Of a stretch of 64,000 nt of DNA, positions 32,435 through 35,717 are shown one piece after another (positions within the stretch are counted from its first letter, which is position 1; every line of letters begins with the position of its first letter). A program made the translations under genes and the position numbers. The notes under the pieces are model-generated. The model did no database searches. It was not told the DNA's origin and was given only the letters and a program-made list of their open reading frames with translations. Source of the stretch: Salinibacter ruber DSM 13855 (GTDB taxonomy: Bacteria; Bacteroidota; Rhodothermia; Rhodothermales; Salinibacteraceae). The stretch lies in contig NC_007677.1 in assembly GCF_000013045.1 (NCBI RefSeq), forward strand, positions 1,922,001 to 1,986,000, read 5' to 3'.

Positions 32435-33409
32435 CTATCTCCGCACCTCGCGGAGCGGATCCGTCGGCTCGCGGTGCTCGTCCGGGTGGGCCTCGTCGTG
32501 CTGACGCGGCTCGAGATGAGCGGTGACGTGCACGTCCTCGTCCGGAAAGAGGGCGTCGACCCGGTCCTCGACCTCGTGGGACCGGGCGTGCGCCTCGTGG
32601 ATCGGCATATCGCCCGGAAACATGAGGTGGTATTCGATCCACACCTGGTCGCCGGACGTGCGGTGGCGCACCTGGTGGAAGCTGGCGATGAGCCCCTCTT
32701 CCACCGCGGTGCCCAGCTCGTCGAGCAGGGCGGAGGAGGCCTCCCAGTCCGCCTCGTCCATCAGGCCGTAGACGGATCGGCGAAGCAGCCCGGTGGCCGT
32801 CCACACGATGTTGGCCGCTACCAGCAGCCCCACCGCGGGGTCGAGCCAACGGATGCCGGTGATCCATACGAGCCCAATCCCGACGATGACGCCCAGGCTC
32901 GTCCACATGTCGGTCAACACGTGCTCCCCGTTCGACTCGAGGACGAGGCTGTTGGTGCGCCGCCCCACGCGAACGAGGTACGTTCCGAGCGCGAAGTTGA
33001 CGGCCGTGAGTCCGCCGATGAGGTAGAGGCCCACGTCGAGCTGCCGAAGGTCGGCGCCCGTCACGAGGTCCTGCACGGCCATCCACCCGATGCCGACGGC
33101 GGCTGCGAGAATAAGGGTGCCCTCCACGGCCGACGCAAAGTACGCCACTTTGCCGTGCCCGTACGGGTGCTCCACGTCCGGAGGCGTGGACGCGTACCAC
33201 AGGCTGAAGCCCGCGAACCCGGTCGCGAAGAGGTGGATGACGGACTCCGCGGCGTCGGAGAGGATCGCGGTACTGCCGGTGAGGGAGGCTGCCGTGAGCT
33301 TCCCGACGAGCATCAGGAACGACACCAGCAGGCTCGCCGTCATGGCCCGCCGCCGTGCGCGCTCCGCCTCGGCACGGGACTCATCGTGTGGAGACTGGGA
33401 TTCAACCAT
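32435..33409 (-). CDS. Cation diffusion facilitator metal exporter
   Basis: A 324-residue inner-membrane antiporter that exports Zn2+, Fe2+ or Mn2+ in exchange for protons. Six helices precede a cytoplasmic ferredoxin-like domain. The first metal-site half is SDAAESVIHLF (helix II, with Glu/His where many family members have His and Asp) and the second is EHVLTDMW (helix V, HxxxD). HPYGHGKVAYF is the typical cytoplasmic loop. The C-terminal domain has MFPGDMPIHEAHARSHEVEDRV and a His/Glu-rich tail that may bind metal. Start is the ATG at 33409; a GTG precedes it by one codon. Confidence 0.93.
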   Translation of the reverse strand: MVESQSPHDESRAEAERARRRAMTASLLVSFLMLVGKLTAASLTGSTAILSDAAESVIHLFATGFAGFSLWYASTPPDVEHPYGHGKVAYFASAVEGTLILAAAVGIGWMAVQDLVTGADLRQLDVGLYLIGGLTAVNFALGTYLVRVGRRTNSLVLESNGEHVLTDMWTSLGVIVGIGLVWITGIRWLDPAVGLLVAANIVWTATGLLRRSVYGLMDEADWEASSALLDELGTAVEEGLIASFHQVRHRTSGDQVWIEYHLMFPGDMPIHEAHARSHEVEDRVDALFPDEDVHVTAHLEPRQHDEAHPDEHREPTDPLREVRR

Positions 33410-33510
33410 CACATTGCCTGTACCCGAGCAGGCACTCTCAGGTTCATCGTTTCCCTTCTTTTCGCACCGAGACGGGTTCCCACGCTCGCCCCCAGCACCC
33501 GGCCCCCGCC

Positions 33511-34674
33511 ATGGCTCACCTCGACCACATCGGCATCGCCGTCGACGACACCGCGGCCGTCATCGAACGGTTCCGGGACCTGCTCGGCATCGTTTCCTAC
33601 AAGTCGGAGTCGGTGCGCGACCAGCAGGTGCGGACCCACTTTCTGGATGCCGGCTCGGCCAAACTCGAACTGCTGGAGGCGCTCGCCGACGGGTCCCCGG
33701 TTCGGCGCTTCCTCGACCGCCACGGGGAGGGGCTGCACCACGTGGCGTTCGAGGTCGACGACCTGTCGGCCACGATGGAGCGCCTCCGGGACGCCGGGAT
33801 CGAGCTGCTAAGCGAGACGCCCCAAGCCGGGGCGGACGACAAGCAAATTGCGTTTGTGCACCCGAGTCAAACCCACGGGGTCCTGGTGGAGTTTTGTGAA
33901 TCCACCACACCCGACTGGACGGCCCGAACCGTGCCCCGCCACGACGGGCACCTCGCCGTCTTCGAACGGGGGGCACGGGACCGGCCCTCCCTCCTCGTCC
34001 TGCACGGCGCCGCGGGGACGACACAGCACGACGCGGCCCCCCTCATTCGGCGGTTGGAGTCGTCCTTCCATGTCGTCGGCGTTGACCTGAGCGGACACGG
34101 CACGTCGGCCCTGCCTGGGGACGCGCCCCTTTCGCTCGACCTGTTCGCCGAAGACGTACGCACCGTCCTAAACGCGCTCGACCTGCCCTCGGCGCACGTC
34201 TTTGGCTTCTCGCTCGGGGGCGGCGCGGCCCTCCGCCTCGCCCAGATGCACCCCAAGCGGGTCGACCGCCTTGCCGTCCTGCAGACAAACGCCCACTGGA
34301 CGGACGACCACGCCCGTCGCATGCAGGCGCGGCTCGACCTCGATGGCCTCGCGGACCGGGCCCCGGGCCGCGCAGCGGGCCTCCGGGCCCGCCACGAGGC
34401 CCCCGACCGCCTCGTGCCGGACCTCCAGACGTTCGTCACCACCCTGCCGGACGCGTCCGACACGCTTACCCAAACCCTTCCGGACCTCGACGCCCCGACC
34501 CTCGTCGCAGGGCTCGATCGGGATCCCCTCTTCGAACTGGCCTCCACCCGGGCCCTCCACGACGCCCTCCCCAACGCGCGGCTGGCCGTCCTTCCCGGCG
34601 ACACCCATAGCCTGTCGCGCGCGCCGAAAGGCTGCCTTGCCCCCCTCCTCTCGGATCATTTCTTAGAGGCGTAG
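33511..34674 (+). CDS. Methylmalonyl-CoA epimerase / alpha-beta hydrolase fusion
   Basis: A 387-residue two-domain protein. Residues 1-130 are a complete glyoxalase-fold epimerase: MAHLDHIGIAVDD (metal His6), LDAGSAKLELLEAL, GEGLHHVAFEVDD (His77) and THGVLVEFCE (Glu127), as in methylmalonyl-CoA epimerases of about 135 residues. Residues 145-387 are an alpha/beta hydrolase: LHGAAGT oxyanion loop, VDLSGHGTS, nucleophile Ser234 in GFSLGGG, an Asp near 337 and His366 in GDTHS. There is no stop or frameshift between them. The epimerase half should interconvert (R)- and (S)-methylmalonyl-CoA; the hydrolase substrate is unknown, perhaps a CoA thioester. No mutase gene is nearby. Confidence 0.9.
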   Translation: MAHLDHIGIAVDDTAAVIERFRDLLGIVSYKSESVRDQQVRTHFLDAGSAKLELLEALADGSPVRRFLDRHGEGLHHVAFEVDDLSATMERLRDAGIELLSETPQAGADDKQIAFVHPSQTHGVLVEFCESTTPDWTARTVPRHDGHLAVFERGARDRPSLLVLHGAAGTTQHDAAPLIRRLESSFHVVGVDLSGHGTSALPGDAPLSLDLFAEDVRTVLNALDLPSAHVFGFSLGGGAALRLAQMHPKRVDRLAVLQTNAHWTDDHARRMQARLDLDGLADRAPGRAAGLRARHEAPDRLVPDLQTFVTTLPDASDTLTQTLPDLDAPTLVAGLDRDPLFELASTRALHDALPNARLAVLPGDTHSLSRAPKGCLAPLLSDHFLEA

Positions 34675-34715: not shown

Positions 34716-35717
34716 ATGTCCCTCCCCTCCCCCCGTTATCTCGGCGACACCGGCGTAAAGGTGTCGCCCCTCTGCCTGGGCACCATGACCTTCGGCGGCC
34801 CCGCCGACCGGGCGACCGCCGCCGCAATGTTTCGGCGCTGCCGCGAGGCCGGCATCAACGTGTTCGACTGCGCCAACGTCTACGAGGACGGCCGTTCCGA
34901 GGAGATTCTGGGAGAGCTGGTGGCCGACTGTCGGGACGAGGTGGTCCTGACGACGAAGGCCTACTTCCCCGTCGGCGACGACCCCAACGCCCGCGGCGCG
35001 AGCCGCTACCACCTCGTCCGGGCCGTCGAGGACAGCCTGCGGCGCCTCGACACGGACCGCATCGACGTGTTCTTCGTCCACCGCTTCGACGAGCAGACCC
35101 GTCTCGACGAGACCCTCCGCGCCCTCGACACCCTCGTGCAGCAGGGCAAGGTGCTGTACCTCGGGGCCTCCAACTTTGCCGCCTGGCAGGTGATGAAGGC
35201 CCTCGGCCGGCAGCGCGCCGAGGGCTGGACGCCCTTTCACGTGATCCAGCCGATGTACAACCTCACGAAGCAACAGGCGGAGGTGGAGCTGTTGCCGATG
35301 GCCCGGAGCGAGGACCTCGGCGTGCTGTCCTACAGCCCCCTCGGGGGCGGCCTGCTGACGGGCAAGTACGGCGTCGACCGGCGGCCCGACGACGGGCGGC
35401 TCGTGGAAAACCCGATGTACCAGACCCGCTACGGGGCCGACGTGTACTACGAGGTGGCCGAGCGGTTTACGACCTTCGCGGAGGAGCACGGCTACGACCC
35501 CGTGTCGCTGGCGGTCGCGTGGGTGGCGCACCACCCCGCCGTGACCGCGCCCATCATCGGCGCCCGCACCCTCGACCAGCTCGACGGGTCTCTCGGGGCG
35601 TTGGAGATCGACATGACCGAGGCCCTCCGGTCGGACATCAGCGCCCTCGCGCCCACCCCGCCGCCGGCCACGGACCGTGTCGAGGAGCGCTCGGAGCACA
35701 CGTACGGCGATCGGTAA
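34716..35717 (+). CDS. Aldo/keto reductase
   Basis: A 333-residue NADPH-dependent oxidoreductase with TIM-barrel fold. The catalytic tetrad elements are FDCANVYEDG (Asp, Tyr), LTTKAYF (Lys) and VFFVHRFD (His). The rest follows the family: GVKVSPLCLGTMTFGG, YLGASNFAAWQV, VIQPMYNLTKQQAEVELLP, VLSYSPLGGGLLTGKY and PIIGARTLDQL. Substrate cannot be inferred. It starts 41 bases after the fusion gene and is followed after 34 bases by a small ORF; the three may form an operon. Confidence 0.94.
   Translation: MSLPSPRYLGDTGVKVSPLCLGTMTFGGPADRATAAAMFRRCREAGINVFDCANVYEDGRSEEILGELVADCRDEVVLTTKAYFPVGDDPNARGASRYHLVRAVEDSLRRLDTDRIDVFFVHRFDEQTRLDETLRALDTLVQQGKVLYLGASNFAAWQVMKALGRQRAEGWTPFHVIQPMYNLTKQQAEVELLPMARSEDLGVLSYSPLGGGLLTGKYGVDRRPDDGRLVENPMYQTRYGADVYYEVAERFTTFAEEHGYDPVSLAVAWVAHHPAVTAPIIGARTLDQLDGSLGALEIDMTEALRSDISALAPTPPPATDRVEERSEHTYGDR

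Follow-up and report, generated by a model that had tools for sequence, protein, structure and literature searches.

The halophilic bacterium Salinibacter ruber encodes, in one uninterrupted reading frame, a methylmalonyl-CoA epimerase of the VOC superfamily followed by a predicted α/β hydrolase, and sequence comparisons across its relatives indicate that the hydrolase half of this fusion is dismantled by degrees, with the remnants still in frame. We think it rather probable, on the strength of residue conservation, that this protein represents an ancestral bifunctional epimerase-hydrolase of the order Rhodothermales, both halves of which would still be active in S. ruber, while in sister families the hydrolase would have been reduced to a structural remnant. 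A first-pass annotation of this DNA had interpreted the gene as a fusion of two complete domains that is unusual among epimerases; this part of the interpretation held, whereas the repeated erosion of the hydrolase half had gone unnoticed in it.

An epimerase and a hydrolase in a single frame

The gene lies in a window of 64,000 nucleotides (the whole stretch of DNA that was analyzed), and the features discussed below are, in window positions:

33511..34674, + strand: epimerase-hydrolase fusion gene; 387 residues, ATG start, where homologs mostly have Met
33517..33900, + strand: methylmalonyl-CoA epimerase (VOC) domain, residues 3-130; TIGR03081, 6wf6 alignment and fold match
33913..34671, + strand: predicted α/β hydrolase domain, residues 135-387 (start approximate); Abhydrolase_1, AlphaFold model and 2ocg match
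34210..34212, + strand: predicted nucleophile Ser234 (GFSLGG); in 34/34 complete fusions, with Ser in 5/35 shortened forms
34294..34464, + strand: cap region (residues 262-318) containing W263 and H295, both invariant; 51-59 residues long in all 34 complete forms
34522..34524, + strand: most likely acid, Asp338, which the alignment pairs with the valacyclovir hydrolase triad Asp; in 34/34 complete fusions, with Asp in 5/35 shortened forms
34606..34608, + strand: predicted catalytic His366; in 34/34 complete fusions and 0/35 shortened forms
32435..33412, - strand: divergent cation diffusion facilitator gene (TIGR01297, 211.7 bits); a synteny marker common to many relatives
34716..35717, + strand: aldo/keto reductase, starting 41 bases past the fusion stop on the same strand

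Translation of 33511-34674 on the + strand yields 387 codons and then a stop, with no break, and both TIGR03081 and Abhydrolase_1 match this frame over their cut-offs, in agreement with the earlier description of a VOC epimerase running in frame into a complete hydrolase. Upstream, window positions 33355-33510 form an extension that is open to a GTG at 33355 and overlaps the divergent transporter gene; comparison with the homologs makes the ATG at 33511 the better fit. The AlphaFold model of the whole chain has a mean pLDDT of 91.2 and a pTM of 0.86. That the fusion might be an artifact of assembly or annotation, i.e., a frameshift merging two genes, is a notion to which we assign a negligible probability: three sister genomes (92%, 86% and 83% identity) have the frame open as well, so it is not an assembly frameshift, and there are 34 complete in-frame copies spanning 38-100% identity. 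Neither a frameshift nor a split into separate genes, which the first reading had named as the outcomes that would undo it, was encountered in close relatives.

The epimerase half

Residues 3-130 match the curated methylmalonyl-CoA epimerase model TIGR03081 with 137.8 bits (cut-off 114.95), and in Foldseek comparisons on the model this half superimposes on the solved epimerases 6bu2 and 6wf6 with an rmsd of 1.2. The likeness to these proteins, from M. tuberculosis (6BU2) and S. coelicolor (6WF6), extends across the whole VOC fold; their chains, however, comprise 134-161 residues, whereas that of S. ruber adds a C-terminal hydrolase of ~255 residues. In a search of the S. ruber genome (3,587,328 bases, two contigs) the fusion was by far the top epimerase-family match, with 93 bits against 47 for the next. 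Its N-terminal half would hence be the methylmalonyl-CoA epimerase of the organism, and its C-terminal half a predicted serine hydrolase with a Ser-Asp-His triad and a cap.

H6, E53, H77 and E127 align with residues 7, 60, 84 and 134 of the S. coelicolor epimerase (6wf6), which we take to be the metal ligands of that enzyme, in the pattern His, Gln or Glu, His, Glu. The metal ligands noted at first sight are thus found at the putative ligand positions, and all four columns are identical in 90/90 proteins of the order. One position counts against an active epimerase: the residue corresponding to E43 of S. coelicolor is Thr42 in S. ruber (window 33634-33636), so that this Glu is lacking, while a review gives the catalytic bases of methylmalonyl-CoA epimerase as Glu/Glu (PMC8142540). 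This column holds Thr in 68/90 order proteins, with Val, Ala or Ile in the others, and Thr in 10/10 outgroups. A shortened relative from family f7 scores 100.2 bits against TIGR03081, under the cut-off of 114.95.

The hydrolase half

The hydrolase half matches Abhydrolase_1 from residue 159 with 80.7 bits (cut-off 25.8). VIA-align searches placed 2ocg, the valacyclovir hydrolase (BPHL) of humans, at the head of the solved folds (Z 30.8; 246 residues superimposed at rmsd 2.4), with meta-cleavage hydrolases next. The triads of the two proteins align, at 22% identity, although the solved 2OCG chain is a hydrolase alone, of 254 residues, and Asp123 of valacyclovir hydrolase, the residue named in the title of 2OCK, corresponds to Leu235 in the fusion. 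The valacyclovir hydrolase triad is given as S122-D227-H255 in PMC4198189, and the equivalent triad of the fusion would be S234-D338-H366, with D338 the most likely acid. Ser234 and His366 had been proposed as catalytic residues before and were confirmed at these positions in all 34 complete copies; the Asp previously placed near 337 is also present, most likely as D338 by the valacyclovir hydrolase alignment, on which alone this choice rests because D336 is equally invariant. The oxyanion His would be H165. Altogether, H165, H196, G197, S234, W263, H295, D336, D338 and H366 are identical in every complete copy, against a mean column identity of 52% among 20 hydrolase halves, and the C-terminal dN/dS in the 11 full-length pairs tested was 0.09-0.37.

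No curated model over its cut-off names a substrate for this half: the 3-oxoadipate enol-lactonase PcaD (TIGR02427) reached 76.4 bits, under its cut-off of 255.85, and the PF00975 thioesterase 21.1 bits, under 26.4. Going by the model names, the bifunctional PcaDC/PcaCD offers a parallel in which a hydrolase is likewise joined to another enzyme of one pathway; the fusion scores 90.7 bits against that model, with a cut-off of 390, and the partner there is a decarboxylase and not an epimerase.

Complete, shortened and free-standing forms

We searched 114 genomes of the order and read the epimerase protein in 90, S. ruber included; family f5 holds further genomes with an epimerase match outside these 90 (at least G269, G270, G272, G273 and G287). 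The 90 proteins divide into 34 complete fusions, 3 that are truncated or interrupted by N, 35 whose C-terminal part is shortened and 18 free-standing epimerases. Among the named relatives, Salinibacter altiplanensis, Salinivenus and Longimonas carry the fusion. The three with truncated or N-interrupted C-termini (G243, G262 and G235) are excluded from the triad counts; in G235 (L083) the hydrolase half is broken by a run of N.

Beyond the order, among the matches listed for genomes of the phylum (180 of 198), none covering the epimerase half passes query residue 155, which bears out the earlier impression that the fusion is not a common form of this enzyme. With the hydrolase alignment as query (one peptide pattern), a scan covering 84,980 species retrieved 76 loci: 57 without an epimerase in the locus and 19 fusions, all of the latter with titles of the Bacteroidetes/Rhodothermales type except L150 ("uncultured bacterium"); two of these fusions are fragments of a single MAG.

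Scores against the hydrolase profile, built from 20 of the fused copies, are 194-362 bits for the full-size fused copies, counting partial ones. In the 114 genomes (hits at E <= 1e-20, with at most 23 candidates per genome scored) no close unfused hydrolase was found, the best scoring 128 bits, and on this comparison we rejected fission with the freed hydrolase retained elsewhere. Nor were hydrolase relics detected at E <= 0.01 within ~1.5 kb downstream of the free-standing epimerases at 18 loci. Since the free-standing epimerases in the more distant families of the order fall inside the tree of fused relatives, and close unfused hydrolases were not found, they are best read as later losses. 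A separate case is the divergent free-standing epimerase of G236 (L082:3779-4207; TIGR03081, 135 bits), the nearest relatives of which on the rpoB tree carry the fusion; this gene is probably a replacement.

Graded erosion of the hydrolase

The shortened C-terminal parts fall into sizes of about 190, 150 and 115 residues. In an alignment that is itself unsure for the strongly shortened forms, none of the 35 retains the catalytic His, and none combines the Ser with the acid. The five with Ser in the nucleophile column (three from f3, G276 and G207) count against our best reading. The cap columns hold at most 10 residues in 32 of the 35, and 22-29 in the remaining three. Such remnants are easily missed by annotation: none of the seven shortened proteins that were scanned had a hydrolase match attaining the Pfam cut-off. 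G224 gave a sub-threshold Abhydrolase_1 match (E 2e-5), and that of G030 was weaker (0.0028).

Profiles were built for groups of shortened parts, and each was compared by hhalign with the hydrolase profile and with decoys (20 shuffled and one reversed). For 7/8 groups, holding 31/35 genomes, the match exceeded all decoys, over 53-172 aligned columns. Scores, with the maximum of 20 shuffles in parentheses, were 163.7 (19.2) for f4/f40/G224, 52.3 (18.7) for f3, 51.0 (16.1) for f7b, 48.8 (17.4) for f5x, 42.7 (19.9) for f41, 39.8 (29.4) for f7a and a weak 28.1 (18.7; E 0.0016) for f46; the eighth group, f5y (4 genomes), gave 18.0, below its shuffle maximum of 20.8. The match is confined to the end of the domain in f7, and to its beginning in f41 and f5x. 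As judged by these profile comparisons, the shortened C-terminal part of 31 of the 35 is hydrolase-derived.

By Nei-Gojobori counts on single pairs, several of which are saturated, the C-terminal dN/dS of the remnants was 0.12-0.15 in f3, 0.11-0.50 in f7, 0.33-0.53 in f46, with two f5y pairs at 0.56-0.60. Of the remnant pairs for which both values exist, all but G199/G206 and G201/G202 show a looser C-terminal part than epimerase half. Among 10 remnant pairs subjected to 1000 bootstraps, seven never reached a dN/dS of 1, and three did so in 30, 10 and 3 of the replicates. These figures suggest purifying selection on most of the remnant pairs tested, a genuine yet weakened constraint whose least certain case is f5y.

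These remnants raise the possibility, which we regard as unlikely though deserving of attention, that even in S. ruber the hydrolase half serves chiefly for structure or dimerization, and that catalysis by the retained triad is not the main target of selection. Consistent with this, non-catalytic shortened forms persist in frame in 35 genomes, and the C-terminal part evolves under the constraint just described in f3, f7 and f46 (0.11-0.53), with seven of ten pairs free of any bootstrap at or above 1. There is also a precedent in ABHD5, described in PMC5314347 as an α/β hydrolase without the nucleophile that acts as an activator. Like the remnants, it is an α/β hydrolase retained past the loss of catalysis; it differs in that it activates a lipase, whereas the remnants are fused to an epimerase, mostly capless and as small as ~115 residues. 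Against such a role stands the retention of S234, D338, H366, H165, W263 and H295 in every complete copy against a background of variation across the domain, since a purely structural domain need not retain these residues. This conservation leads us to favor an S. ruber protein in which both halves would be active.

How often was the hydrolase lost?

The species history was approximated by an rpoB tree built from 60 genomes of the order plus 6 outgroups, with SH-aLRT support only and frames chosen by similarity; family f42 lies outside it, because its genome yielded no rpoB match. The outgroup epimerases are free-standing in the 4 of 6 that were read. Family f3, with shortened forms, splits off first (support 85 for the remainder); f44/f45 and the S. 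ruber family are full-size, G236 excepted; and the shortened G224 is nested with the full-size G223 and G225 (support 99). With regain barred and G236 left out, this tree yields six losses, or three after collapsing branches below 80 or below 95.

Gene order speaks to the same question. Among the 51 loci compared (the epimerase being missing from the crude gene calls in 7/51), common neighbors tie together complete, shortened and free forms at many loci. The divergent cation-efflux gene stands upstream of complete forms (the S. ruber family, f42 and f45), shortened forms (f40 and f5) and free forms (f8 and f5), and UvrC downstream of complete forms (f43-f45), shortened forms (f40, f41, f43 and f7) and one free form. 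Both markers occur together at L057 (shortened) and at L085, L086, L087 and L098 (complete); neither was found at the f3, f4 and f6 loci. A CoA-disulfide-reductase-like flavoprotein (L086:1168-2580; 319 bits, under the 578.8 cut-off) is encoded near the epimerase in 16/51 loci.

A single loss event spread by gene transfer would also account for the shortened forms, and the epimerase half does not speak against it: in an AU test on 131 columns without G236, a single clade of shortened forms was not rejected (p 0.118), and f3 and f4 are without synteny markers. We nonetheless deem this scenario improbable, because no fewer than three losses are required on the rpoB tree even with weak branches collapsed, and because gene order puts many shortened copies at the place of the complete form, e.g., L058 beside L094/L095. 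Moreover, holding f43 together on the epimerase half was likewise not rejected, with a likelihood slightly above that of the free tree. On its own, the epimerase half has too few positions to settle this history. Under the repeated-loss history that we favor, the fusion would have arisen once, at or before the base of Rhodothermales, and sister families would have lost the catalytic parts several times, leaving the domain shell fused; the shell was probably retained because the epimerase had come to depend on it structurally.

What might the hydrolase do?

The hydrolase half would most likely cleave a small (thio)ester. More tentatively, the putative substrate may be an acyl-CoA from the pathway of the epimerase, for instance (S)-methylmalonyl-CoA or an off-target relative, whose cleavage would free CoA when the B12-dependent mutase is short. 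According to PMC4198189, valacyclovir hydrolase cleaves homocysteine thiolactone, an analogy that is suggestive only. A role of the epimerase beside the canonical mutase is supported by family f2, where in 7/7 genomes the listed matches to the fusion fall in the hydrolase half only and the sole mutase matches lie in frames of ~1160-1170 residues, which we take to be the fused isobutyryl-CoA mutase. In f44/f45 (G226-G228, G232-G239) the best mutase frames span ~480-720 residues, mostly shorter than the ~680-830 seen elsewhere, and the mutase of these families is perhaps of another type.

It is about as conceivable, and equally short of an even chance, that two unrelated activities were joined for expression only, with the target of the hydrolase outside the propionate pathway. 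Esterases and C-C hydrolases are the closest folds among solved structures, the mutase gene lies elsewhere, outside the window, and the hydrolase has been lost while the epimerase was kept. The repeated loss of catalysis, which shows that it is dispensable to the epimerase, also counts against our best reading. Against two unrelated activities, the fusion has been held over several families, and the lack of any close unfused relative in the 114 genomes would be odd for an unrelated activity. Co-transcription of the fusion with the aldo/keto reductase is possible; as operon evidence, the reductase accompanies 6/51 loci compared, all in S. ruber's own family.

Implications

Our literature search, which covered only a minority of subscription journals, listed no paper on this epimerase-hydrolase fusion. 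PMC3102087 mentions haloarchaeal epimerases and unrelated fusions, and the phrase "methylmalonyl-CoA hydrolase" was found within this search in one paper, where "D-methylmalonyl-CoA hydrolase" is a name for Mmut (PMC12486507).

As a speculative synthesis, an active capped hydrolase might have been fused once, the epimerase might then have grown structurally dependent on it, and catalysis might have been lost on at least three occasions with selection of ever smaller remnants, the intact form being a (methyl)malonyl-CoA hydrolase. This would propose a role in the propionate pathway for a serine hydrolase of halophilic bacteria. More generally, related proteins, many of them at one locus, lead from a fusion of two intact enzymes, by way of non-catalytic remnants in several sizes, to a free epimerase, and such a series makes testable the question of why fused domains may outlast their own activity.
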